From the IMG/VR virus record IMGVR_UViG_3300043420_001088, positions 1 to 23,619 of that record: a DNA stretch of 23,619 nt; one strand, written 5' to 3'. Position numbers and translations under genes: made by a program. A model generated the notes under the pieces. That model was not told the origin of the DNA, made no database searches, and saw only the letters and a program-made list of their open reading frames with translations. Each line of letters opens with the position of its first letter. The stretch's first letter is position 1. This document shows, in pieces, positions 3,664 to 21,615 of this stretch. This DNA comes from a virus.

Positions 3664-6600
3664 GTGGCTTACAGAGCTGATATTGAGATCGGCGTAAGAG
3701 GCGCGGACAAGCTTAGGGAACTGCAAGAACGTGTAGTTAAACTTTCTCGTGCCGTAGAAGATGCGAACGTAAAAACACTTATTGATAGAAAGGCTATTCA
3801 AAGCGTAAGTGAATACACAAGCGTAGTAGCTAAAGCGGCCGATACATTACGTGAAACAGCAATACAACTAAATGCCGCAGGTAAAGCCTCAGGAGATTAC
3901 GCGGACGCTATTAGTCAGTATGTTACAGCTATTGGACAGGCAAACGCAGCACAACAACTACAAAATAATCTTATTGCTGATGAAATTGAATTACGCCGTA
4001 AACAAAAGTTAGCCCAATCCGGTATTCGTGAAACTACACAATATACCGGTCCTATCGGTCCAGGACCAGCTTCGTCGGTACTTGGAGGACAATCAACTCC
4101 CGTTGAAGAACGTATTCGCAGGACTCTAGATGCGCGAAGAGACGAACTAGAGCTGCAAAGAGCACTACTAACCTTGGAAGAAAAGTCTGCAGAAATAGCA
4201 AACAAAAAACTACAAGCGCAAGGAGAAATAGCCGCACTTACAGCTAGAAGCGTAAACGCCGCAAAATTTCAAGCGGTACAAACACCTGCACAACTTGCGT
4301 TACCAGCGTTTACAGAAAGGGGCTTACAGCTTTTAGATGATAGTGTAAGAGCGAATGCCAGTAGCTTAAGAATTGAAGCGGCACTGAACGGAGAACGCCA
4401 GCGTGGTGTACGTTTCTTAGAAAAACAGACAGCGGAAGAACAACGCCAACTTGAATTAGGAATTCTCGGTGCACGAACTAACATCCTCCCCGGTACTGGA
4501 CGGGCTCTAGGTGCGGTACCAACCGGAGGTTTTCCTACTGCAGGTCCCATGCTCAGCCCCGGTTTTCGGGGTATGCAGCGCAATGTCGGAAGATTCGGAG
4601 AGAATCTGGCCCTTGGCGCAGGCTTCCCGCTACTGTTCGGCGGTGGAGCTGGGTCAGTTTTAGGCTCTATCGCTGGCTCGTTTGTTGGCTCCGGTTTTGG
4701 CGGTCAGATTTTAGGCGGGGCTTTAGGTCAAGTTCTTGACCAAGCGCTCCTTAAAATTCGCGACATTGGCACGGCTATTAAAGAACTGGATTTTTCATCT
4801 CTAGTAGAGTCTGGAATCCGGTTTACAGAAGAAATTCAATCTCAACTAGATCTTTTACTTCAAGTTGGGGATGCCGTAACAACACAGAAGATTCTTAGTC
4901 AGGAAGTAGCGCGCGAGACGGGAACCTTACCTGGCGTAACAGAGGATATTGCAAATAGCGTAAGTATCTTAAATGACTCTTGGCGCAAAACAATTAACGC
5001 CATTGGAACGACTGTAGGTATAATTGCTTCTCCTCTTGCTGTAGCAATAGCAGGGATACTTGAAGCAGTAAATTTAATCTTTAGAGGCGTAAATCAGATA
5101 TTTAGTTTGCTCGGTAAAGGTATAAAAACGGCAGCCGAATTTGTTATTCAGTTGGTTGGCGGTAAAGAGGTACTAGAGTTTATTAACCAGGGTATAGCGC
5201 AATTAAATTCCGGTTTAAGTGAAGCTGTTGCAACAGCAGCAGAATTCCGTAATACACTCAACCAGACTGTGGTACGCACGTCTATCGACCTGACCGCTGC
5301 TCAAGCTCTCACACCCGGTCTTACTAGCGAAGATAAACTTACTAACATTCGTGTAGAAAAACAAAGGCAGCTAAACCAGCTGTATCAAGATGAAGCCGAT
5401 GCAAGAATTAAGATTCGCAGTGAAAACGCTAAAGCCACGCAAGAAATTATTGATGGTTTAATTAAACAAAACGAGTTTGTATTCAAAAACAAAAGAGAGC
5501 TTGTTGAAATAACCGCTGAAAGGCAAATTACGGCAGAAGTTCAACGGGAACAAGCTCGCCTAGCCGGTGAAGAAGCACGAGCTGCAGAAAAAGCAGCAAG
5601 AGAGCTGGAACGTCAGCGCAAAGAAACGGAACGTATGGCAGAATTACGTCGTAAACAGTTAGATGATGCTCAGCGCAATTTTATTCTTGCGGAAGCAAAT
5701 ATAGACATCGCTACTTCCAACACAAAAGAAAGCAAATTACAGGCCGAATACGATAAAGTACGCGTAGAGCGTATGTTTACTTTTAGCGATTTACTTAAAA
5801 AAGCTTTAAGCGAAGAAGAGCGTGAGTTTATAGTACAGACTCAATACTTACAGGTTATATTAGATACAATTAAAAACGAAGAAGCTCTTTTAGAACTTAA
5901 AAAACAGCAGACGGCGGAACTTTATGCCCAACTAGATGCAGCAGGAATCCTTGATGAACAGACACAAAGGCGTTTACGTCGTGGCATGAGCCCTGAAGGG
6001 GGCGCGGATCGACGCGTCGGCGTACTCGGTTTTACTTCTGGCATTGATTTAGACCCAAGCAACAGAGCCGCTGAAAAAATAAAAGAGATGAAACAGCGTT
6101 TAGAAGAATTAAGCGACCCAATCAATATGGCTGCCCAAGGTGCTATGGGTATTGGCAACGCTTTCAGCACGGCGTTCCAAGGCATAATCACGGGCACTCA
6201 ATCTACACAAGAAGCACTTAGCAATTTCTTCAAAGGCGTTGGCGATGCTTTTGTAAGTATGGCCACCGAAATTATTGCTCAAATGGTTGTAATGTTTGCC
6301 TTTAAAACACTACTAGGTATTTTTGGTGGCGGAGGCGGCAGCTTTTTTAGCGGCGCAGGTCCGGTAAAACTGCCGGGCGCATTGAATCCGTTGGGAGGAG
6401 CGGATGTAGCAGGTAATTTTGCTCCGAATTTTACATTTGCAGAAGGCGGATTTGTTACCGGCCCCACTCGCGCACTAATTGGCGAAGGCGGCGAACCGGA
6501 ATACGTCATCCCAGCCAGCAAGATGCGCACCGCTATGTCGCGTTATTCGGCTGGCGCACGCGGTTCTGCTGTCATCCCAGCCGGCAACGACGGCGGCGAG

Positions 6601-6807
6601 GGGCCAGATGGCGCCAATGCAACGGCACCAGGCACAATTGACGTGCGCTACACCGTTGAGCGCATCAATAACGTGGATTACGTGACCGCCGATCAATTCC
6701 AGCAAGGTATGCAACGTGCTGCTGCCGAAGGCGCCCAACGCGGCCAACAACTTACGCTTCGCCGTTTACAACAGTCACCTGCAACCCGTAGGAGGGTCGG
6801 CATCTGA
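3664..6807 (+). CDS. Tail tape measure protein
   Basis: A 1047-residue protein that sets tail length and helps pass DNA into the cell. At the usual scaling of about 0.15 nm per residue it predicts a tail near 155 nm. Residues 1-270 are largely coiled coil; about 320-370 is a Gly-rich hydrophobic stretch; about 450-500 is a second hydrophobic segment; about 550-770 is a long charged coiled coil. The end holds ALIGEGGEPEYVIPASKM, the conserved C-terminal motif of tape measures. No peptidase or lysozyme motif is seen. The start is GTG 3664, the first in frame after the terminator. The first 2.7 kb is AT-richer with many A- or T-ending codons, while the last 330 bases are GC-rich like the flanks. 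Its stop overlaps the next start (TGATG). Confidence 0.92.
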   Translation: MAYRADIEIGVRGADKLRELQERVVKLSRAVEDANVKTLIDRKAIQSVSEYTSVVAKAADTLRETAIQLNAAGKASGDYADAISQYVTAIGQANAAQQLQNNLIADEIELRRKQKLAQSGIRETTQYTGPIGPGPASSVLGGQSTPVEERIRRTLDARRDELELQRALLTLEEKSAEIANKKLQAQGEIAALTARSVNAAKFQAVQTPAQLALPAFTERGLQLLDDSVRANASSLRIEAALNGERQRGVRFLEKQTAEEQRQLELGILGARTNILPGTGRALGAVPTGGFPTAGPMLSPGFRGMQRNVGRFGENLALGAGFPLLFGGGAGSVLGSIAGSFVGSGFGGQILGGALGQVLDQALLKIRDIGTAIKELDFSSLVESGIRFTEEIQSQLDLLLQVGDAVTTQKILSQEVARETGTLPGVTEDIANSVSILNDSWRKTINAIGTTVGIIASPLAVAIAGILEAVNLIFRGVNQIFSLLGKGIKTAAEFVIQLVGGKEVLEFINQGIAQLNSGLSEAVATAAEFRNTLNQTVVRTSIDLTAAQALTPGLTSEDKLTNIRVEKQRQLNQLYQDEADARIKIRSENAKATQEIIDGLIKQNEFVFKNKRELVEITAERQITAEVQREQARLAGEEARAAEKAARELERQRKETERMAELRRKQLDDAQRNFILAEANIDIATSNTKESKLQAEYDKVRVERMFTFSDLLKKALSEEEREFIVQTQYLQVILDTIKNEEALLELKKQQTAELYAQLDAAGILDEQTQRRLRRGMSPEGGADRRVGVLGFTSGIDLDPSNRAAEKIKEMKQRLEELSDPINMAAQGAMGIGNAFSTAFQGIITGTQSTQEALSNFFKGVGDAFVSMATEIIAQMVVMFAFKTLLGIFGGGGGSFFSGAGPVKLPGALNPLGGADVAGNFAPNFTFAEGGFVTGPTRALIGEGGEPEYVIPASKMRTAMSRYSAGARGSAVIPAGNDGGEGPDGANATAPGTIDVRYTVERINNVDYVTADQFQQGMQRAAAEGAQRGQQLTLRRLQQSPATRRRVGI

Positions 6808-7274
6808 TGGAACTATCAATCGGCAATTATCTGACGCTGAAAGATCGCGGCGGCACTGTCCGCCTTCGTGCGCAGAACTTTTTTATCGGCCAAAACAGCA
6901 GCTACGAAAACCAAACGTACAACTTCATGCCATTCGGCTTTTCCGGCATCACAATCAACCGGAATGGCGACAACACCGACGCCAGCTTGGTTTTCCCAAA
7001 CAACGACATCAGCCGTAACTGGTCTGTCGAAGCTTTGCGAGATCGTTGGCTAGCGATTGTGTACGTGATGTTGCTGGATCCAGAAACCCGTGCTGTTACC
7101 ACGCGGATGCACCAGTACTACGGCCAAGTCGCGGGCGGGGAATGGGATGAAACGATGCTGACGCTCCAGCTCAATACCGTATTGGATGCTGTTGGCGCCG
7201 ATTTTCCAGTGCGGCGACTGAACCAACGCTTGATTGGTGCGTTGCCCGTGTCCAACAATGTCCGACTGCAGTGA
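6807..7274 (+). CDS. Minor tail protein, L-like (possible DUF1833 relative)
   Basis: A 155-residue protein directly after the tape measure, the place of lambda gpM/gpL. It has a beta-rich N-terminus (NFMPFGFSGITINRNGDN), a LVFPNNDISRNW segment, and ends with LDAVGADFPVRRLNQRLIG followed by a short strand. The closing P-x-R-R-L-x-Q motif recalls the C-terminal part of L/DUF1833-type minor tail proteins, which join the tube end to the tip complex. Start ATG 6807 overlaps the upstream stop by one base, so the two are translationally coupled. The family name is from memory and is the weak point; the role as distal tail protein is supported by order. Confidence 0.7.
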   Translation: MELSIGNYLTLKDRGGTVRLRAQNFFIGQNSSYENQTYNFMPFGFSGITINRNGDNTDASLVFPNNDISRNWSVEALRDRWLAIVYVMLLDPETRAVTTRMHQYYGQVAGGEWDETMLTLQLNTVLDAVGADFPVRRLNQRLIGALPVSNNVRLQ

Positions 7275-7626
7275 TCTGATCGGCTATCGCTACCGGCTAG
7301 GCGCTACCGGCAAGGATGGCGAGATCGACTGCATCCACTTGGTTTACACAGTATTAGGGCGTCTGCACATACCGACGCCAGCGTTTAATCCGGCTTGGTA
7401 CACGGCATCACGAATCCAGATAGCCCGTGATCTTTTGCAATGGGGCGAGCGAATATCAGACCCCAGCTATGATGGCGATGTCCTGCTATTGAAGCAGGGT
7501 ACAACAGCATTTGCGGTTACATGGCAGGCGGGAATCCTCTACATCTGCCCCAATACGGAGAAGGTGAACTGGTGCCCGTTGGCGGCACAAAAAGGCTTCC
7601 ATTGCTTCCGTATGAGAAGCAGCTGA
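7258..7626 (+). CDS. NlpC/P60-like tail protein, catalytic His apparently lost
   Basis: A 122-residue protein in the position of lambda gpK. LIGYRYRLGATGKDGEIDCI gives the NlpC/P60 signature (G-x-x-Y-x-x-G, then G-x-x-D-C) with the nucleophile Cys at residue 25, and YDGDVLLLK the following G-D-V strand. In the family the next strand begins H-V-G-I; here it reads Q-A-G-I (Gln90), so the catalytic His seems missing. It may therefore be structural, or use another residue. ATG 7258 is chosen because the family motif starts at once; it overlaps the previous gene by 17 bases. GTG 7234 is an alternative. The 3' end overlaps the hub gene by at least 55 bases. Confidence 0.75.
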   Translation: MSDCSDLIGYRYRLGATGKDGEIDCIHLVYTVLGRLHIPTPAFNPAWYTASRIQIARDLLQWGERISDPSYDGDVLLLKQGTTAFAVTWQAGILYICPNTEKVNWCPLAAQKGFHCFRMRSS

Positions 7627-10600
7627 TTGAACTGCTGGGTTGCAGCGAAGAGGAATATCGAAGGTTTGCCGCTGAAGCCCAAAGGCGTGGAATGATCCGC
7701 CCAGCGGAATACGACGGCATACCGGATGTAAGAAATGAAACTGCGACAATCCTTGCAATTATCAGCTTGGTAGTCGGCTTAGCGTCCACAGCCCTATCGC
7801 TGTTGATGCAGCCCAAAATCCCAAGTGCTGACGATAGGGGTGTTCGCAGGCTTGCCAGCCGCACCGGTCCTGATCGCTTCAGTCAAACTACAGGATTTGA
7901 CTCGCTTGCTGATCTAGCTGACTACAACACTCCAATTCCGATCATTTTCGGTCGCCGCAATGAACGCGCTGGCGGCATGTTGGTTACACCCAGCCTTGTG
8001 TGGTCACGTGCGTTTTCCTACGGCTCACAGCAGAGCGTCAAAATGCTGTTTGTCGTTGGCGAACAGGGACTGGGGCGCGGAATTGAACCGCCAGTACTAC
8101 AAGGCATCTTCCTAGGCAACACACCGCTGGATGCGATATATGCGCACTCCTTCGCGATGTATTGGAAGCGCGGCACAAACGAAGTACCTCGCATCAATAA
8201 CACCAACCTTCTATCTGGAACACGCGGCACTCCTTCAAGCGGTGATCCTCAGACTAACGACGATATTTTTACTTGCCCCACAATTAGAAACGCAAACGAT
8301 ACCGGCTTCTGTCATACATACACCCCAACGTCAAACACGACATTTGGCGCTTACTCCGCAATCGCGAATGGTACTGATTTTCGCCTTAACTTTGTAATCA
8401 AAGCTGTCGAAAACGTAAGTGGAGACGGCAGAGACGCGCACAACAGAAACGGCGCACAACCTTCTTTACAAGAAAGAATTAAAATTGCAGGTGATTACAA
8501 CATTGACCGAGCTGCATCTGGCGAAGATAATTATTACAGCCGAGTGTGGCACTATGGACAGGCTGGTGTGGGGCGCGGTTATAGCATCCGCATGGGGATT
8601 GTTCGATACGAAGGGCAAGCTGCTAGCGAGAACCGTGCATCGTATGTAGCCGCAGTTGGTGATCGCATTGTATTTGCCATCCATCCAGGCAATGTTCCTG
8701 CAGACACCTACCAAGAAACTGAAGATGGCGAAAGAACTGACGCCGGCGTCGAAGACATAAACAATGAAATTCAGTCTTTAAGAGAGCGCGCAGATGATCT
8801 ATTGCAGGTAGGGGAAACATTTATTATCAGTGGTTCGGTGTGGGTCGTCGAATCAAGAACGAGAGAAGTTTTTACAAACCAACGTCAAGACATTACTTTG
8901 CGGTGCATTGAAGTTCTTGCTGACGGACAGGCCCGTCGAGTAGGGATTATCAACGAAAGGTTTATTACTGAATGGAAAAATGGTGATGATCTGCAACCAC
9001 GCAGCATCGGTCCTTCGTATTACCCCTTGCTGCGCGTCGACTTTGCAACAGTAAAAAATACACGTGCGTGCGAAATTACAGAGATTGGTATCAAAAGCCA
9101 AGTGTGGAATAGAGCAAATGGTTTGTCGAATTTCAATAGCCTAATTAGCCCCGAACCGCTTAAAAGACTTGAGCGCGCTGGCTACGCGGTTCAGAGTGGT
9201 GTGATGAATATGTTCATGAAGCGCTCATCGCTGTTCACAATTTTCGTTCGTCCGGCTGGTGTTAATGCAAGCGGCGATCCGTATGAATGGGCTCCAATCG
9301 GTGAAGAGTTTAACGTAAACGGTGAAAACAACATTGATAAGTACAACTACATTCGTATCCAGCACCCCGAGCTAGGTCGCTACGAATTTCGTCTAGTGCC
9401 GCGACCCGGCGCTTATGTACAGCAACATATAGAAGACACGTCGCAGCTGTGGACGCTAAATGCAGCCAACGGCCCGCAGCTAACTGGCACGTACCAAACT
9501 CAGTACGGCAGTTTTAGGCTTTATTCACGCGGTTATCGAGTAACTAAGAGCGCAATTACGTTTAACCCAGAAATGATGCAAGATCCTCGTGTTACACGAG
9601 GCGGTGAGACACGGACTATCCCAAGCGGAATGGAAGTCGTGCGGTATCTTCCCGATGACTCGACTGTTGAAAATCACCCAACTTCGTTGCAATTCAACGA
9701 AACCGATTACGGTTCATGGTTCCCTAGACCGGTAAGCGGCGCACCGGCTCCTGGTGTACAAGGTCAAATTGGTTGTTTCATGTACGAAGTACTGGGGCAA
9801 CCCAACTCACTTAACGAACGGCGCAGCGCTACACGTCGTTTTGAACTTGGTAACAATAGAAGTATCACCGTTGAGTTTGTTGGCATCGCCGCAGTAGATC
9901 TGCGCAATCTTGACCACTACACGGGGCGAAACGGCAGCGGAAATCGGCAAAACTTCCGCTGGGTGCCAATTGCAATGAATCCGATTGCCGCCACAGGTCA
10001 CTTCGCAGCTAATACAAATATCGACTTAATCCTCACTACCAGTAGCAGCAACCCTTGGCGGGTTCGTACTAATCCATCTGGAATTAACAGCCCAACAGGC
10101 GTGACCGTGCGAATCGTTTCCGTGCGTGCCACAGAGGTGTTTGGCCGTCAGCAAGGATATGAGTACGAATTGTTTGGCGCACCTACAGCAGCCGGTACAA
10201 CAGGTCGTCGCACGATTGATCGAACTATCGGTGGACGTGAATTGCGTCTTACTGCAACTAGCACTGTTGTTGCTGCTGGCGAATGGGAACGTCAACAATT
10301 TCCCGCTGAACAGTACATGTGGGGAGACACCGTGTTTACGGTGGATGAAGCTGGTACTGACGGTACTTGGCGATCTGGTGAAACCGTCGACATCACCACA
10401 ACAGTGGGTGCTGGGAATATATGGCGCCCCTTTGGTAGCACCGTTGGCGTCCGTCTTCGTGTAACTGGATTGCGTTCTACTACAGGCAGCACAGCAGTAC
10501 GAGCCGCCCGTCAGTTTGAAGAAGCATCCCGAATTGCGGATGTAACACATTATCCAAGTTTGCTACAAAAGTCGAATGAAAGTGGTCCCGAACATGAAGT

Positions 10601-11786
10601 CGTTTATGTCAATGAAATGCGGCAAAACGTCGCCGTACCTGAGTACACAAACTTGACATTGGCTGGTCTGTCACTTAAGGCAAGCCGGACATTTAGCCGG
10701 ATGGATCAGATTCGCTTCTGGTTGTCCGATGGGATCAAAGTCCGCAAATTCCAGCCAAATGCGGGCAATGATCCAGCAGCAAGCGAAATGTTCTGTGATC
10801 TGGTGTACTACCTACTTACCGACAGCACGGCAGGTGTTGGATCGGTTGTGTCGACAGATCTAATTGATACCAGCAATTTTGCTGAACTGACCCGTTTTTA
10901 CGACGGCAATTTGATGTACTTCAATGGTGTCATTTCTGAGCCAACAAATATCCGCCAGTTTATTTACGAAACAGCGCCTTTCTTCCTTACCAATTTCACG
11001 ATTGCCGAAGGGCGGTTCGGTCTGCGTCCAGCACTCCCAATCAACCCTTCTGGAACGTTTGCCTCTAGTACTCCCGTACAGGGTTTGTTCACTGCCGGCA
11101 ACATTCTTGAGGATAGTTTTGCCGTAACATTTTTCACATCAGAAGAACGCAAAGATTTTCAGGCAGTGGTGCGTTACCGCCAGGAACGTCCCAACCAACT
11201 ACCGGAGGAGCGGACAGTCAATGTGCGCTGGGGCGAAGAAGGCGGTGACACTTACCCGATTGAAAGTTTTGACCTAACTCGTTTCTGCACAAACCGCGAA
11301 CACGCAGAAATTGTCGGCAAGTACCTACTGTCCATCCGTCGGCGCATTACGCACTCCATCAGGTTCAAAACCAGTCCTTATGGATTGCAACTGTCGCCTG
11401 GTGACTACATTCGTGTTAATACCACGGCAAGTCCTTATTCCTCGGCAAATAACGGTGTAATTGATGCAACGGGTAATATCACCTCAGCCACTACGCTGAC
11501 CGATGGGCAGTACAACGTCATTTATTACCTGCCGCCTGAAGACACAACGCAAGAAAGCACTTTGACTGTTGCCAATGGACGCGCCGTTGAGACAACACTG
11601 TTTAATAGTATTTTCACAGTACTAACCAACACGACTAGCAGCAACTTGTACAGCGTGGATCAAATCAGCCTTGACGAGGAAGGCATGGTTGAAATTGTTG
11701 GCACGGAGTTCCCGACTATGCCCAACACCACTAGAAGCTCGATTGTGGAAGACCTACAATCAAATGGATTCATCGTGGAGGGTTAG
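7572..11786 (+). CDS. Tail tip hub / host specificity protein, J-like
   Basis: A protein of 1404 residues (1421 if started at ATG 7521). The N-terminus carries a hydrophobic helix, ATILAIISLVVGLASTALSL, as in lambda gpI-type proteins, then the J-like start TPIPIIFGRRNERAGG. The C-terminal third contains the hub segments EYTNLTLAGLSLKASRTFS and HAEIVGKYLLSIRRRITHS followed by LSPGDYIRV, which are typical of gpJ-like baseplate hubs. The middle (about residues 250-1050) is beta-rich and I could not split it. GTG 7572 is preferred because GGAGAAGG lies upstream at 7557-7564, whereas ATG 7521 has no Shine-Dalgarno and would overlap the upstream gene by 106 bases. It probably forms the central spike and may contact the host receptor. 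Confidence 0.88.
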   Translation: MPVGGTKRLPLLPYEKQLIELLGCSEEEYRRFAAEAQRRGMIRPAEYDGIPDVRNETATILAIISLVVGLASTALSLLMQPKIPSADDRGVRRLASRTGPDRFSQTTGFDSLADLADYNTPIPIIFGRRNERAGGMLVTPSLVWSRAFSYGSQQSVKMLFVVGEQGLGRGIEPPVLQGIFLGNTPLDAIYAHSFAMYWKRGTNEVPRINNTNLLSGTRGTPSSGDPQTNDDIFTCPTIRNANDTGFCHTYTPTSNTTFGAYSAIANGTDFRLNFVIKAVENVSGDGRDAHNRNGAQPSLQERIKIAGDYNIDRAASGEDNYYSRVWHYGQAGVGRGYSIRMGIVRYEGQAASENRASYVAAVGDRIVFAIHPGNVPADTYQETEDGERTDAGVEDINNEIQSLRERADDLLQVGETFIISGSVWVVESRTREVFTNQRQDITLRCIEVLADGQARRVGIINERFITEWKNGDDLQPRSIGPSYYPLLRVDFATVKNTRACEITEIGIKSQVWNRANGLSNFNSLISPEPLKRLERAGYAVQSGVMNMFMKRSSLFTIFVRPAGVNASGDPYEWAPIGEEFNVNGENNIDKYNYIRIQHPELGRYEFRLVPRPGAYVQQHIEDTSQLWTLNAANGPQLTGTYQTQYGSFRLYSRGYRVTKSAITFNPEMMQDPRVTRGGETRTIPSGMEVVRYLPDDSTVENHPTSLQFNETDYGSWFPRPVSGAPAPGVQGQIGCFMYEVLGQPNSLNERRSATRRFELGNNRSITVEFVGIAAVDLRNLDHYTGRNGSGNRQNFRWVPIAMNPIAATGHFAANTNIDLILTTSSSNPWRVRTNPSGINSPTGVTVRIVSVRATEVFGRQQGYEYELFGAPTAAGTTGRRTIDRTIGGRELRLTATSTVVAAGEWERQQFPAEQYMWGDTVFTVDEAGTDGTWRSGETVDITTTVGAGNIWRPFGSTVGVRLRVTGLRSTTGSTAVRAARQFEEASRIADVTHYPSLLQKSNESGPEHEVVYVNEMRQNVAVPEYTNLTLAGLSLKASRTFSRMDQIRFWLSDGIKVRKFQPNAGNDPAASEMFCDLVYYLLTDSTAGVGSVVSTDLIDTSNFAELTRFYDGNLMYFNGVISEPTNIRQFIYETAPFFLTNFTIAEGRFGLRPALPINPSGTFASSTPVQGLFTAGNILEDSFAVTFFTSEERKDFQAVVRYRQERPNQLPEERTVNVRWGEEGGDTYPIESFDLTRFCTNREHAEIVGKYLLSIRRRITHSIRFKTSPYGLQLSPGDYIRVNTTASPYSSANNGVIDATGNITSATTLTDGQYNVIYYLPPEDTTQESTLTVANGRAVETTLFNSIFTVLTNTTSSNLYSVDQISLDEEGMVEIVGTEFPTMPNTTRSSIVEDLQSNGFIVEG

Positions 11787-11788
11787 CG

Positions 11789-12166
11789 ATGGCGTTTCCA
11801 TCCCAGCGGCCAACTTCGCGTGAATTCAACGCAGGCGACTGGCCTACAAAGACTTTCAAGGCGCAGAACGGGGTCGAAATCCGCATCCTTTATGGCGATC
11901 AGCGCACCAACATGACGTTGAGCCTTACATACAGCAATATCACGGATGCAAACGCCGAAGCCTTTTTGACGCATTACCGCGAAACGCGCGGCACCTATTC
12001 CACGTTCACCATTCCAACTGAAGCCAAAGCTGGCTGGACAGGTAGTGCGGATGAAATTGACGCAACGCCTTGGAACAACCGGTGGCGATATAGCGGTCCA
12101 CCTACCGTTACTAGCGTCAAACAAGGGCGCAGCACGGTAAAAGTCGATCTGATCGGCGTTCTCTAG
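11789..12166 (+). CDS. Minor tail protein after the hub
   Basis: A 125-residue protein starting AFPSQRPTSREFNAGDWPTK, followed by FKAQNGVEIRILYG and a beta-rich body with several Trp. This pattern (P-S-x-R-x-F x-x-G, then a N-G-x-E-x-R-x-x-Y-G strand) is common in small phage tail proteins found beside tip genes; I recognise the type but not a firm family. The start has a strong Shine-Dalgarno, GGAGGG at 11777-11782, six bases before the ATG and overlapping the hub's last codons, so it is coupled to the hub gene. It is probably part of the tip or the fibre attachment ring. Confidence 0.65.
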   Translation: MAFPSQRPTSREFNAGDWPTKTFKAQNGVEIRILYGDQRTNMTLSLTYSNITDANAEAFLTHYRETRGTYSTFTIPTEAKAGWTGSADEIDATPWNNRWRYSGPPTVTSVKQGRSTVKVDLIGVL

Positions 12167-12189
12167 ACTGCTACTAGGAGGCACCTGCA

Positions 12190-12615
12190 ATGGCCAAGGT
12201 TTATACGGGACGCGACGGTCGCCTACTGATCGACGACGTTGAGCAGATCAAGGTAACGAACTGGAGCATATCCGGCAATCTTGAGATGCTGGAGACCACC
12301 AGCCTTGGCGATTCGCAACGAACCTACGCACCGGGCGTGCAGGAATTTAGCGGTAGCGCCACTTTGTTGTATTACAACGACGGTACTGGTCGAAATGACG
12401 CGGCTACTGCTCTGCGTAAGGTGCTGCGGATTGGCAGCGTTGCCGATGCCGATACAGTTGATCTTCGCCTGCGCTTGGTGGAGGGCAGCACCAACCACGA
12501 CATTCGCCTTACCGCTTATGTAACCAGCGTCAGTTTTGGCGCCAGCGTGGGCGAGGTTAGTTCTGCACAGATCAATTTCCAAGGAACTGGTGCTCTCACT
12601 GCGGTAACGATCTAA
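12190..12615 (+). CDS. Small tail-tube-fold protein, paralogue of the major tail protein
   Basis: A 141-residue protein. Residues 24-62 (NWSISGNLEMLETTSLG, then YAPGVQEFSGSATLLYY) follow the same pattern as residues 129-171 of the major tail protein: W-x-I/F, a polar strand, T-T-x-G, then Y-x-P, G and a final strand. Residues 108-135 (AYVTSVSFGASVGEVSSAQI then NFQGTG) match the last strands. It lacks the inserted domain of the major tail protein, so it is close to a minimal tube fold. AGGAGG at 12176-12181 gives an excellent Shine-Dalgarno eight bases before the ATG. Its place after the hub, not before the tape measure, suggests a tip ring or fibre adaptor. Homology is my reading of aligned motifs. 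Confidence 0.72.
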   Translation: MAKVYTGRDGRLLIDDVEQIKVTNWSISGNLEMLETTSLGDSQRTYAPGVQEFSGSATLLYYNDGTGRNDAATALRKVLRIGSVADADTVDLRLRLVEGSTNHDIRLTAYVTSVSFGASVGEVSSAQINFQGTGALTAVTI

Positions 12616-13511
12616 TGGGTATTTACCTTGGACAAATCGGCAGCATAGAGCTTACGCGGAAGTCACTGGAAAGTCCGCTGGAGTCTATTGTTAATCCGAG
12701 CGATGTTAATGCTAATCGCAACCGCTTCAGCTTTGATTTCGATGAGGGTTATTTAGTTACAGGTGATTTGGTAGAACTTGCCACTACTGATAACACAACT
12801 TTAGACTTTGTTGCGGCTAGCGGATGGACAGCCGGCACCGTTCAAACAAGCGGCGACTGGTACGTCTTTATTGATGAACTAGGCGGGATAAAGTTATACG
12901 ATAATTTCGACGATAGCCTAGAAGGTAGTACAACAGGACAGGTTACGCTTGCGGCTATTGCGCGCAACATTCCAATCCGTGTAACCGTCCGCGATCGTGA
13001 CTCCCGTTTGCTGGCCAACGTTGTTGAGTATGAGCTGAATACAAATCGTGAAACAGTTGATGTGACTGCCTTGAGTGATCAGCATCGCCAGCAGTACAGC
13101 AGCTTAATCACAGGCAGCGGCAGAGTAACCGCCCACTGGGACTACACTAATACAACTGGCTACGAACCCATCCATTACTTAATGCAGCTTGTAATCCGCA
13201 CTGAAGTTGGTTCGTCTTTTCACGGCAAGTTTTACGTTAAAGCGGAAAATACCACGTCGCAAACGGGTCGTTTTGATGCCACGCAGATCAACGACTCTCT
13301 TTGGTGGGAGTTTGATGCACTGGTAACAAGCGCCGCAGTCAGCTTTACGCCGGACAGCGTGATCGTTGGTGTTGTGGATTTTGTTGCCACGGGTCCAATT
13401 CGCTTGAAGGCACGCACACAACAGAAACGCTTCCTGCTGCAAGAGGACGACGGCAAGATCGAGCTGGAGCAGGATCCCACTTCTTACTTGTTGCTGGAAG
13501 AATTGGAGTAA
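12615..13511 (+). CDS. Second tail-tube-like paralogue, with inserted domain
   Basis: A 298-residue protein whose start overlaps the previous stop (TAATG). Residues 137-176 (VEYELNTNRETVDVTALSD, then YSSLITGSGRVTAHWDY) and 234-262 (ALVTSAAVSFTPDSVIVGVV then DFVATG) repeat the core and closing strands of the major tail protein. Residues about 44-112 (YLVTGDLVEL ... WYVFIDELGGIKLYD) look like the same kind of inserted beta domain as in that protein. The last 35 residues (QKRFLLQEDDGKIELEQD then YLLLEELE) are a short repeat of leucine-and-acid strands common at the ends of phage structural proteins. A tip or adhesion-ring role is likely from its position directly before the fibres. Confidence 0.68.
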   Translation: MGIYLGQIGSIELTRKSLESPLESIVNPSDVNANRNRFSFDFDEGYLVTGDLVELATTDNTTLDFVAASGWTAGTVQTSGDWYVFIDELGGIKLYDNFDDSLEGSTTGQVTLAAIARNIPIRVTVRDRDSRLLANVVEYELNTNRETVDVTALSDQHRQQYSSLITGSGRVTAHWDYTNTTGYEPIHYLMQLVIRTEVGSSFHGKFYVKAENTTSQTGRFDATQINDSLWWEFDALVTSAAVSFTPDSVIVGVVDFVATGPIRLKARTQQKRFLLQEDDGKIELEQDPTSYLLLEELE

Positions 13512-13557: not shown

Positions 13558-15264
13558 ATGGCTGACCTCAGGATCACCGAACTGGCGGCCCTGGCTGGCG
13601 CCAACCTCGCTGCCGGCGATTTACTGGCAATCGCGGACATCAGCGCCAGTGAGACCAAAAAGATCACGGTCACGGATCTGGTTGGCAACGCAACGACACT
13701 GATTGCTGATGCCACTATCCCCGGCGCCAAGATCCTGTTCAGCAGCGGTCAAATTGCAGGCAGTGCCATTGCGACGGGTGGCATTAGCGCCACGCAACTA
13801 GCTGACGACGCAGTTACTGCAGCAAAACTTGCTGACGAATCCAGCGTCGATCTTGTCACGACGCTTCCGGTGTCTGGCGCTTTTGTCGGTCAGATTGCAC
13901 TGGACACCGACGACAGCAAAATTTACTGCTGGAATGGCAGCACTTGGGTCAGCGTCAAAGCAGCCGGCAGCGTCAACAGTGTTGTAGGCAGCAGCAGTGG
14001 AATCGTCAATATCAGTGTTTCCACTGTCGGTGACACCGTAACGATTACCACGACACTTGATGCCACGGCAGGCGCAGCGGAATTTCTTGCTGGTCCAACG
14101 AGTGCAGCTGGTGCTGTTGGTTATCGCGGAATTGTCGGCACTGATCTTCCTACACCAACGAATTCAACAAAAGGTGCCGTCATTATTAACGGCGAGGGGC
14201 TCCGCGTAGATGGCGACACCCTTGAGATTGATAACGACGTAACGGCAGCGGCTACCCATTCTGTTGTTACTCATAACGCAAAAGGTCTTGTAACCGGAAG
14301 TCGTGCGATTGTTGCTGCTGATCTTCCTGCTGCGACCGTCAGCGCCAAGGGTGCCGTTGTCGTTGGCACGGGTCTGAGCGTTGACGGCACTGGAACACTT
14401 AATCACAGCAACACAGTTGTTTCTGGCACCGCAGCCAAGGTTACTTTTGACTCGCAGGGCCATATCACTGGCACATCAAACTTGCTTGCGGCTGATATTC
14501 CAGATCTTGACGCGGCAAAAATCGCCAGCGGGACACTGCCTACCGCCCGATTCGCTGACAATGCAGTCACAGGCGTCAAATTAAGTGATTATGCCGTCTC
14601 GTTAATTGGTGAAACGCAACCTACAGCAGAACATATTGGTCAGTTCTTCTTTAACCCGCTTACCCGAGATTTGTATCTTTGGGACGGCAACGTTTACCAG
14701 CCCGTCGGCATTAGCGCCGGTGAAATTGTTCTTGCCGGTACTTACGACGCAAGCACAAACTTGCTGGATTCTGTAACAGCAGAAGGTGCCGCCGCAGGAT
14801 TCACCAATGGCGCATCTTTACCTGGTGCTGCTGCGCTAAACAACCGTTACTACGTTGTTGTTAGTCAATCCGGCACAGGCACAGCCCCTGCACCAACGGT
14901 TGCACTGGAACCGCCCGACATTTTGCTGTCGAATGGCACGAACTACGTTCTGATTGAAACATCAGAAACGATCACAGCACAGATCGCAAGTAATGTCGGC
15001 TTTACTCCGACCGGCAATATCGCCAGCACCAATGTTCAGGCTGCAATCGTTGAGGTAGACAACGAAAAAGTCGCCAAAGCCGGCGACACAATGACCGGCG
15101 ATTTACTGCTTAATAACTGCAATTTGGTATTTGAAGGAGCAACAGCAAACGATTACGAAACAACCCTTACTGTTACAGATCCAACTGCTGACCGGACTGT
15201 CACATTCCAAGACGCTACTGGCACAGTTGCATTGACTAGCGATCTTGACGATGGAACGTTTTAG
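13558..15264 (+). CDS. Tail fibre protein, cyanophage type
   Basis: A 568-residue protein. The N-terminus, ADLRITELAALAGANLAAGD followed by LLAIADISASETKKITV, is a form I associate with cyanophage fibres and probably attaches to the tail tip. The body is Ala/Gly/Thr/Val-rich with repeated short beta units: STKGAVIINGEGLRVDGDTL and SAKGAVVVGTGLSVDGTGTL are two copies near residues 202-221 and 261-280. Near 360-385 is a QFFFNPLTRDLYLWDGNVYQ unit of the kind found in fibre shafts, and an earlier IYCWNGSTWVSV copy occurs near 122. It ends with DPTADRTVTFQDATGTVALT, again typical of these fibres. No enzyme motif is seen. The ATG has only a weak GGGAAG upstream. Confidence 0.8.
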   Translation: MADLRITELAALAGANLAAGDLLAIADISASETKKITVTDLVGNATTLIADATIPGAKILFSSGQIAGSAIATGGISATQLADDAVTAAKLADESSVDLVTTLPVSGAFVGQIALDTDDSKIYCWNGSTWVSVKAAGSVNSVVGSSSGIVNISVSTVGDTVTITTTLDATAGAAEFLAGPTSAAGAVGYRGIVGTDLPTPTNSTKGAVIINGEGLRVDGDTLEIDNDVTAAATHSVVTHNAKGLVTGSRAIVAADLPAATVSAKGAVVVGTGLSVDGTGTLNHSNTVVSGTAAKVTFDSQGHITGTSNLLAADIPDLDAAKIASGTLPTARFADNAVTGVKLSDYAVSLIGETQPTAEHIGQFFFNPLTRDLYLWDGNVYQPVGISAGEIVLAGTYDASTNLLDSVTAEGAAAGFTNGASLPGAAALNNRYYVVVSQSGTGTAPAPTVALEPPDILLSNGTNYVLIETSETITAQIASNVGFTPTGNIASTNVQAAIVEVDNEKVAKAGDTMTGDLLLNNCNLVFEGATANDYETTLTVTDPTADRTVTFQDATGTVALTSDLDDGTF

Positions 15265-15315: not shown

Positions 15316-17277
15316 ATGGCTCTTCAACATCTGCGTTCTAGCACTGCCAATAAGCGCCCACTGCCCGCCTCAATGTCAGATGGGCAACTGGCAGTCAACA
15401 CGGAAGCTACCAGTCCCGGCGTTTTCTTTAAGAACACCTCTGGGTTGCTTGTAAAAGCTGGACCGGTTCACGTTGGAACGACTGCGCCAAATGCGACTCC
15501 AGCTTCCGGCGGCGATACGGGCAACAGCGTTGGCGAGCAGTGGCTTGATACCAGCGTTAGCCCCAGTCAATTGAAGACATGGGATGGATCTGCTTGGGTT
15601 AGCGATTTTCCCGACGAAATTCCTGTCAGTAAACTTGCTGATGGCACAGCCCGTCAATTACTGCAAACCGATGCAGCCGGAACTGGCGTTGAGTGGACTA
15701 GCAACGTAGATATTCCTGGCACACTAGACGTATCCGGTGCTGCAACATTTGACGATACGGCAACATTTGCAAACAATGCAGCGCACCCGATTGGTAGTGC
15801 CGCAGCGCCAACGATTACATTTACCGGCGACACCAACACTGGTATTTATTCTCCCGGCGCAGACCAAGTAGCCATCTCGACTAATGGCACTGGGCGGTTG
15901 TTTGTTGACAGTGTTGGACTTGTTGGTATTCGTAAAGCTGTTCCTACAGCTTTGTGTGACGCTGTTGGCTCTGTTGTTGGCTTTCGCCATACCAACGGTT
16001 CAGGAACATCAGAGTTTTACTCTGATTCTGCTCAGACGGTAATCAACTCAAGCGGTTCTATTGTCGCCTCTGCTTCCGGTGCAAATAGTTTTGTAGTACA
16101 GACAAACTCCAGTGAGCGGCTTCGCGTTGACTCCAGTGGCCGCTTAGGTCTGGGGACTAGTAGCCCTGCTAATCTTCTCGATCTATTTGGCACTGATTGC
16201 AAACTTCGTGTTCGGGATAGTGGTCAAACCAACGGTCTTGAAATCTATCAAACAAACTCTGACGGTGGCAACAGCATTTATGCAGTCAACAATAACTACC
16301 TGCGGTTTGGCACAAATAACACTGAGCGAGTCAGAATCACATCGGGAGGCAACGTAGGGATTGGCACTGCGAGCCCTCAAGACACATTGCACGTTGCCGG
16401 GAGTGTTTACACAGAAAATCGCCTTTATGCAGGAGACGGTGCAGCAGCTACACCATCTATTCGCTTCTGGAACTCGAATGTTGGCCTGTATGCACCTGGG
16501 AGTAATGCGCTTGGATTCAGTACAGGTGGATCCGAACGAGCCCGCATCGACAGCTCCGGCAGGCTCTTAGTTGGCACGTCTAGTGCGCGTCAGATTGGTA
16601 CAGAGCGGGGTTTACAAGTTGAATCAACAGGAGCTTTAGGCTCAGTCTCTGTTGCTCGCAACGACAATTCCAGTGCTAGCGCTTCTCCAGTGATAGTCCT
16701 AGGCAGATCGCGTGGGACAACAAACGGTTCAAATACTGTTGTTCAAGCAGATGACGATCTCGGGTATTTGATTTTTGCGGGCGCCGATGGCTCTGATATG
16801 AATAGCTATGGCGCCTGGATTCGCTGTCAAGTGGATGGCACCCCCGGCGATAACGACATGCCGGGCAGGTTAGTGTTCTCCACTACGGCGGATGGATCAG
16901 CTTCTCCAACGGAGCGGATGAGGATTAGCCAAAATGGCGTAGTAACAGTTAAAAATGGTGCTGTTGCTGAAATTGGTACCCTTACTGATGCTGCAACGAT
17001 CACACCTAACTTTGCCGCTAATTGCAATTTTACTGTTACTCTTGGGGGCAACCGGACTATTGCTAACCCCACTAACCTGACTGCAGGGCAAAGTGGTAGC
17101 ATTTTTATTGTTCAAGATGGAACTGGCAGCCGCACACTTGCTTGGGGCAGTTATTGGGACTTTGCTGGCGGTACAGCACCAACCCTTTCGACTGCCGGAG
17201 GATCCGTTGATCGCGTTGACTACATTGTGCGCAGTAGCACAAGCATCCATACTGTGTTTACTGCAAACTACTCATAG
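15316..17277 (+). CDS. Tail fibre protein with SSGRLGLGTSSP-type repeats
   Basis: A 653-residue protein. Residues 1-55 (LRSSTANKRPLPASMSDGQL then AVNTE) are a conserved fibre N-terminus of cyanophages, and QWLDTSVSPSQLKTWDGSAW near 75-94 is a short attachment or shaft unit. Five divergent repeats follow the plan E-R-x-R-x-x-S-x-G-x-x-x-x-G-T: residues about 192-208, 267-284, 337-354, 407-424 and 533-547, with variable beta segments between them. Residues 556-653 form a common C-terminal beta domain (VTLGGNRTIANPTNLTAGQS ... IVQDGTGSRTLAWGSYW). It probably trimerises into a long fibre that contacts the host. It follows the first fibre gene by 51 bases. AAGGA is almost touching the ATG, so initiation may be weak. 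Confidence 0.84.
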   Translation: MALQHLRSSTANKRPLPASMSDGQLAVNTEATSPGVFFKNTSGLLVKAGPVHVGTTAPNATPASGGDTGNSVGEQWLDTSVSPSQLKTWDGSAWVSDFPDEIPVSKLADGTARQLLQTDAAGTGVEWTSNVDIPGTLDVSGAATFDDTATFANNAAHPIGSAAAPTITFTGDTNTGIYSPGADQVAISTNGTGRLFVDSVGLVGIRKAVPTALCDAVGSVVGFRHTNGSGTSEFYSDSAQTVINSSGSIVASASGANSFVVQTNSSERLRVDSSGRLGLGTSSPANLLDLFGTDCKLRVRDSGQTNGLEIYQTNSDGGNSIYAVNNNYLRFGTNNTERVRITSGGNVGIGTASPQDTLHVAGSVYTENRLYAGDGAAATPSIRFWNSNVGLYAPGSNALGFSTGGSERARIDSSGRLLVGTSSARQIGTERGLQVESTGALGSVSVARNDNSSASASPVIVLGRSRGTTNGSNTVVQADDDLGYLIFAGADGSDMNSYGAWIRCQVDGTPGDNDMPGRLVFSTTADGSASPTERMRISQNGVVTVKNGAVAEIGTLTDAATITPNFAANCNFTVTLGGNRTIANPTNLTAGQSGSIFIVQDGTGSRTLAWGSYWDFAGGTAPTLSTAGGSVDRVDYIVRSSTSIHTVFTANYS

Positions 17278-21135: not shown

Positions 21136-21317
21136 GCGTTACCAACACCACTGACTACGGCAACGGCTACAGCCTGGACCAACTGGAAAACGAACGCGGC
21201 GAACTGTACTATCGCGCCTGCAAGGACAGCGTTTGCCGTTACGCCGAAGACCACTACATCGCGGTGATGTATCTCGAAGGCATGGGCTGGGACCCTACGC
21301 AACAAGTCCCTCAGTAA
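21132..21317 (+). CDS. Small unknown protein in the lysis region
   Basis: A 61-residue acidic protein whose ATG overlaps the stop of the holin-like gene by four bases (ATGA), so the two are translationally coupled. It contains YGNGYSLDQLENERGELYYR and a short helix with C-K-D-S-V-C, then YIAVMYLEGMGWDP. I do not recognise the family. There is no signal peptide or membrane segment. Its last 23 bases overlap, tail to tail, the antisense HNH gene. Confidence 0.65.
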   Translation: MSVTNTTDYGNGYSLDQLENERGELYYRACKDSVCRYAEDHYIAVMYLEGMGWDPTQQVPQ

Positions 21318-21615
21318 TCCAGCGGATAATCGCATCCTCTCGATGCGGCTCCCAAAACGGCTGGTCCCTGTACCACTCCAGCCAATCTTCCGCCGACTTC
21401 GAGATATTGCAGCCAAAACAGCAAGCCACCAAATTCTGCTGGTGCGTGTGCCCACCTCTGAATTTGGGATGTACATGATCCAGCGTGGCAGATCGCCCCA
21501 AATCTGCACCGCAATAGGCGCAGGAATTATTCCAATGGTTAAGGATTGATTGCCTAAATCTTGCTTTCGCTTCCTTTTTGTTTAAGTATTCGCCATCCTC
21601 GATGCGATGGTCCAT
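21295..21615 (-). CDS. HNH endonuclease, antisense in the lysis region
   Basis: A 106-residue protein on the minus strand. It has two zinc-binding Cys pairs (CAYC at 32-35; CFGC at 66-69) and an HNH core: LDHVHPKFRGG with His47, then NL with Asn61, then CN with Asn70 and K73. The tail EDWLEWYRDQPFW is typical of a group of HNH proteins common in cyanophages. All key residues are present, so the enzyme could be active as a free-standing nuclease or homing enzyme. It is the only gene on this strand between the connector genes and 23.4 kb. It overlaps the end of 21132-21317 by 23 bases. No Shine-Dalgarno is evident before the start at 21615. Confidence 0.85.
   Translation of the reverse strand: MDHRIEDGEYLNKKEAKARFRQSILNHWNNSCAYCGADLGRSATLDHVHPKFRGGHTHQQNLVACCFGCNISKSAEDWLEWYRDQPFWEPHREDAIIRWITEGLVA

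Follow-up and report, generated by a model that had tools for sequence, protein, structure and literature searches.

Two adjacent genes located downstream of the J-like hub gene of an uncultured phage, referred to here as P1 and P2, encode proteins that share a homologous core with the phage's own major tail (tube) protein, P3. Computational analysis shows that the two genes are conserved as a pair, evolve under purifying selection, and belong to the tail-tip module and not to the tube. On balance, we think that both proteins would be carried in the virion, where they would supply the tail tip with accessory rings of the tube fold, that of P2 being decorated and facing the fibres.

The window, i.e. 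the whole stretch of 23,619 nucleotides analysed, is a tailed-phage contig from IMG/VR, with genes running from head completion through the tail to lysis. The closest named relative by the major tail protein is KBS-S-2A (79%), and the closest by the J-like protein are S-CBS1, S-CBS3, S-LBS1, and Mic1. Since these nearest named relatives are cyanophages, the window phage is taken to be an uncultured siphophage whose host is probably a cyanobacterium. A small open reading frame with an HNH-endonuclease-like motif (21295-21615, - strand) runs against the main direction of transcription and is found near the lysis gene in relatives.

P1 (12190..12615), P2 (12615..13511), and P3 (2213..2986), all on the + strand, encode proteins of 141, 298, and 257 aa respectively, with coordinates and frames identical to those given in the first-pass annotation. 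P1 is a minimal tail-tube-fold protein without insert, while the tail-tube-fold protein P2 comprises an insert representing a candidate outward decoration domain (12672..12968, ~aa 20-118), a tube core (12969..13409, ~aa 119-265), and a C-terminal tail that is a candidate fibre-docking peptide (13410..13508, ~aa 266-298). P3 has its core at ~aa 118-250 and an insert of its own at ~aa 27-117, and its gene occupies the canonical site, flanked by the terminator on one side and the tape measure on the other. A good Shine-Dalgarno sequence (AGGAGG at ~12176-12181) precedes P1, and no obvious ribosome site for P2 was found in the window sequence. The stop codon of P1 and the start codon of P2 share one nucleotide (TAATG), an overlap kept in 152 of 160 loci; because the two codons overlap, the translation of P1 and P2 is probably coupled. 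Purifying selection is reflected in a dN/dS of ~0.08 for both genes, the P2 value being derived from only 7 relatives of equal length. A scan for promoters and terminators around the pair returned nothing interpretable.

Small coupled gene pairs that precede fibre genes can act as assembly factors. P1 and P2 might thus stay outside the mature virion, as assembly helpers for the tip or fibre or as scaffold-like factors, an explanation to which we give a slim chance: tube-fold proteins are characteristically structural rings, P2 bears a decoration-type insert and a tail, and conservation is strong.

The homology of the P1, P2, and P3 tube cores, far beyond chance, emerges from several sequence comparisons. 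Among the window proteins, BLASTP returned E values of 6e-4 for P1-P2, 2e-3 for P2-P3, and 3e-3 for P1-P3, and a phmmer search with P3 against 8,428 open reading frames reached relatives of P1 (to 6e-8) and of P2 (to 4e-6). The first-pass annotation had claimed that P1 and P2 repeat the core pattern of P3, and profile-profile alignment with hhalign bears this out, with E values of 2e-10 (P1-P3), 5e-9 (P2-P3), and 6e-8 (P1-P2). As negative controls, the gpM-like, gpL-like, and Mic1 ORF20 proteins were compared with the P1 profile, and nothing matched (probabilities below 2%). The Pfam lambda-like tube family was reached by 34 of 56 P1 relatives (E<=0.01), the window P1 itself lying under the curated cut-off of this family. 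The AlphaFold2 models were of modest confidence, with a mean pLDDT of 64.5 for P1 and 67.3 for P2, and the claim of core homology is therefore carried by the sequence evidence. Foldseek comparison supported the tube fold strongly for P1, whose model matched 40 PDB entries at E<=1e-3, with few exceptions tube, terminator, or baseplate tube-fold chains; support was weaker for the P2 core, for which tube chains topped the list with a best E of 4e-3. By core sequence and by the predicted beta-sandwich with helix, P1 and P2 are thus assigned to the fold superfamily of tail tube (major tail) proteins; sequence searches yielded no solved relatives of either. In the phylogenetic tree, P2 formed a single clade and P1, P2, and P3 appeared as old, separate lineages, with deep branches made unsafe by long-branch warnings, and for this reason no claim is made as to which of the three was duplicated from which.

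Near the N-terminus, P2 and P3 both contain an insert of ~100 aa, located at an equivalent position, and the P2 insert is modelled confidently (block-mean pLDDT mostly 75-93). The first-pass annotation had described the two inserts as a common domain, a view that the profiles do not support: the hhalign alignment of the pair spanned 28 columns with a probability of 0.4%, and in hmmsearch each insert retrieved only its own family, with no cross matches. A shared insert was accordingly rejected at the level of sequence.

The neighbouring tip genes, all on the + strand, include a gpL-like hub protein (6807..7274; phrog_25799), recognised by pattern and by a profile match to the Mic1 'Phage tail L', and a J-like hub/central protein (7521..11786) of the S-CBS1/S-CBS3/S-LBS1/Mic1 type. 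They are followed by a gpM-like or DUF2460-like, probable distal tail protein (11789..12166), displaced to a position after J, and, directly after P2, by the fibre gene F1 (13558..15264), whose product begins with an 'ITEL...SASETKKITV' domain. The order gpL-like, NlpC-like, J, gpM-like, P1, P2, fibre recurs in >100 IMG/VR loci, and a distant P2 query, which retrieved 8 loci only, showed the same gene order. The gpM-like gene is itself a normally fixed gene in a mobile position (window 11789-12166; L181, L183, L200, L202, L203, L208): it comes after J in most relatives, but some, such as L181, L183, L200, L203, and L208, have it ahead of the gpL-like gene, nearer to its usual place. The possibility that P1 and P2 are misnamed gpM or gpL was rejected, the P1 profile matching neither (gpM-like probability 1.7%); P1 falls outside the distal tail protein family (gpM / DUF2460 Dit), which is represented in the window by 11789-12166.

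Loci fetched with P1 or P2 would be biased with respect to linkage, and the linkage test was therefore run on loci fetched by P3 alone, having the J type of the window and room downstream of J. P1 and P2 were both present in all 18 of these. Conversely, a locus with a P3 96% identical to that of the window (L141) encodes lambda-like gpM, gpL, and J proteins, has a fibre-like gene immediately after them, and lacks both P1 and P2, and neither gene found a match in KBS-S-2A or S-2L, which have the same tube family and another tip. In three further loci with a KBS-S-2A-type tip (L187, L215, L218) P1 and P2 were not detected, the loci ending before the region after J. Across 37 loci, the divergence of P1 and P2 correlated with that of the gpM-like protein (rho 0.80 and 0.81, respectively) and of J (0.74 and 0.72), and not with that of P3 (-0.12 and -0.09), although P3 varies little and neighbouring genes correlate through linkage alone. 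P1 and P2 are thus inherited and exchanged with the hub and tip genes and not with the tube. Plain gene adjacency could account for this linkage and is counted against the tip-ring explanation.

Among relatives, identity is mostly 80-98% for the terminator, P3, and the gene after it, and falls to ~28-62% for the tape measure and tip genes, which places a recombination border within the tape measure gene or close to its start (window 3664-6807). L141, L187, L215, and L218 combine the same tube protein family with a wholly different, lambda/KBS-S-2A-like tip module.

These results also bear on the alternative that P1 (or P2) is part of the tail shaft, as another tube subunit, second or alternative, that is interspersed with P3 or layered on it. 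'Major tail protein' families fit P1 better than P3 (4e-12, the PHROG match, vs 4e-3), and P1's closest relatives in named phages include members of adjacent tube-fold gene pairs in MED4-117 and S-H1; unlike P1 and P2, however, these pairs lie in the normal tube position, between terminator and tape measure. In Mic1, the gene for the abundant tail tube protein lies downstream of that for the J-like protein (PMC7156551). This tube gene, ORF20 (L229 3975-4613), is far from the normal place of a tube gene; its kinship with P1 and P2 was considered and rejected, neither showing a sequence match to it. In the window, the canonical tube site is taken by P3, and P1 and P2 both come after J; moreover, the same P3 works with a tip devoid of both, and their divergence is uncorrelated with its own. 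We regard a shaft role as improbable, and the 'second tube layer' suggested by the first-pass annotation finds no support, given the phages that have the same tube protein, another tip, and neither P1 nor P2.

A link with the fibres is suggested by the C-terminal tail of P2, which carries a conserved motif (RxLLQEDxxKIELEQDxxSYLLLEE) and for the most part is modelled only at low confidence. The tail and a directly downstream ITEL fibre were both present in 110 loci with a readable next gene, neither was present in 7, and the ITEL fibre without the tail was found in none; this count omits L193, a tail-protein fragment. The lone apparent exception, L068, does have the fibre, whose start, with a non-standard start codon, was missed. 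In the 7 loci with a tailless P2, the next gene encodes a different protein, mostly much larger. As the tailless proteins form one clade in the tree, the association amounts to about one independent evolutionary event. Searches of the phage records with the P2 tail peptide and the fibre N-terminus retrieved nothing.

In three loci (L068, L073, and L078; e.g. L078 from 6078), F1 has no ATG, GTG, or TTG at the expected start, and the frame opens at ATC (GTC ATC GCT GAC CTA CGC) a few bases past a GGAGG site, so that use of a rare start codon is possible; F1 likewise lacks a usual start codon in the relative L079. A second fibre gene in the window (15316-17277) contains short stretches ~90-100% identical to tail-fibre DNA of S-CBP3, S-CBP4, and S-CBP42, which are Synechococcus podophages, pointing to an exchange of fibre modules across phage types.

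Since P1 and P2 travel with the tail-tip genes and not with the tube, they are probably tip rings that help to hold the fibres. Under the preferred tip-ring model, each would use the tube fold to form a ring that shares the axis of the tail and is probably hexameric. That of P1 would be a plain adaptor and that of P2 a decorated ring, with its ~100-aa insert directed outward and its flexible C-terminal tail helping to hold F1, the fibre encoded by the adjoining gene. Their partners would be the gpM-like ring and the gpL/J hub, and neither ring would act along the shaft. The first-pass annotation had already proposed a ring that adapts the tip to the fibres; tip-module linkage and the fibre as the next gene agree with it. 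What we infer is that the proteins are in the virion, form rings, sit at the stated position, and dock the fibre. The most specific version of the model is put forward tentatively: in a widespread group of uncultured siphophages, probably infecting cyanobacteria, two dedicated tube paralogues would supplement the gpM/gpL-type rings as a two-ring tip adaptor, the second ring docking the fibre by means of its conserved C-terminal peptide, so that the tip would be built by repurposing the tube protein itself.

The main rival shares with the tip-ring model both the fold and the tip linkage. P1 and/or P2 would be tube initiators, lying as rings where the shaft meets the hub and nucleating assembly of the tube, and would play no part in fibre attachment, as illustrated for tube initiation by Mu gp43, whose tube-like domain forms a hexameric initiator ring at the hub and which carries an additional domain (PMC11915804). 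Mu gp43 belongs to a contractile tail, the window to a siphophage. The insert-free P1 would suit a plain stacking ring. In siphophages, however, tube and hub are already connected by the gpM/Dit ring, for which the window has a gpM-like gene, while the P1-P2-fibre order and the pattern of the P2 tail point towards the fibres; we therefore consider tube initiation unlikely, albeit the most serious of the alternatives. That the usual distal-ring role is already filled by the gpM-like protein also counts against the tip rings proposed here.

Tube-fold rings at the tip are standard in siphophages, and P1 and P2 would most likely contribute one or two more of them: in lambda, the gpM ring and a gpL hub domain have the tube fold, and gpM, topologically similar to gpV, anchors the tip to the tube (PMC10721106). 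Lambda gpM and gpL are nevertheless encoded before J, one each, whereas the window encodes a gpM-like and a gpL-like protein of its own, to which P1 and P2 come as extras; their genes follow J, and their sequences are nearer to those of tube proteins than to the gpM-like or gpL-like one. Decorated distal tail rings, combining the tube fold with added domains, include JBD30 gp49, from a phage in which fibres attach at sites made up of the distal tail and upper baseplate proteins (PMC11445458), LSH1 gp24 (PMC13243795), and the R4C Dit (PMC10276861); in these phages the decorated ring is the Dit itself, whereas in the window it would be a separate tube paralogue. S-CBS1, S-CBS3, S-LBS1, and Mic1 have related gpL-like, J-like, and gpM-like genes and, as in the window, small structural genes after J; in the S-CBS phages and S-LBS1, these comprise two gpM-like proteins, with no P1 or P2.

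Among 50,697 phage records, most P1 matches were to proteins annotated as tube or major tail protein, with identities no higher than 35%, and P2 matched nothing, so that no cultured phage encoding P2 was found; a weak search of bacterial genome contigs with a few short patterns also found no P2 relatives. An extra, co-conserved pair of tube paralogues after J, beyond gpM and gpL, was likewise absent from these records and from descriptions in the open-licence literature. The novelty claimed by the first-pass annotation thus holds for the pair and not for tube-fold tip rings in general, and P1 and P2 are probably a modest novelty within an established tip architecture.

On current thinking, tail tips arose as the tube fold was put to new use time and again. 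P1 and P2 represent two extra reuses, still recognisable at the sequence level and swapped together with the tip, in many environmental phages of which no cultured example was found. If the tip-ring model is true, they would provide a clear case of a tube protein turned fibre adaptor, with the P2 tail as a named peptide that makes fibre docking testable.
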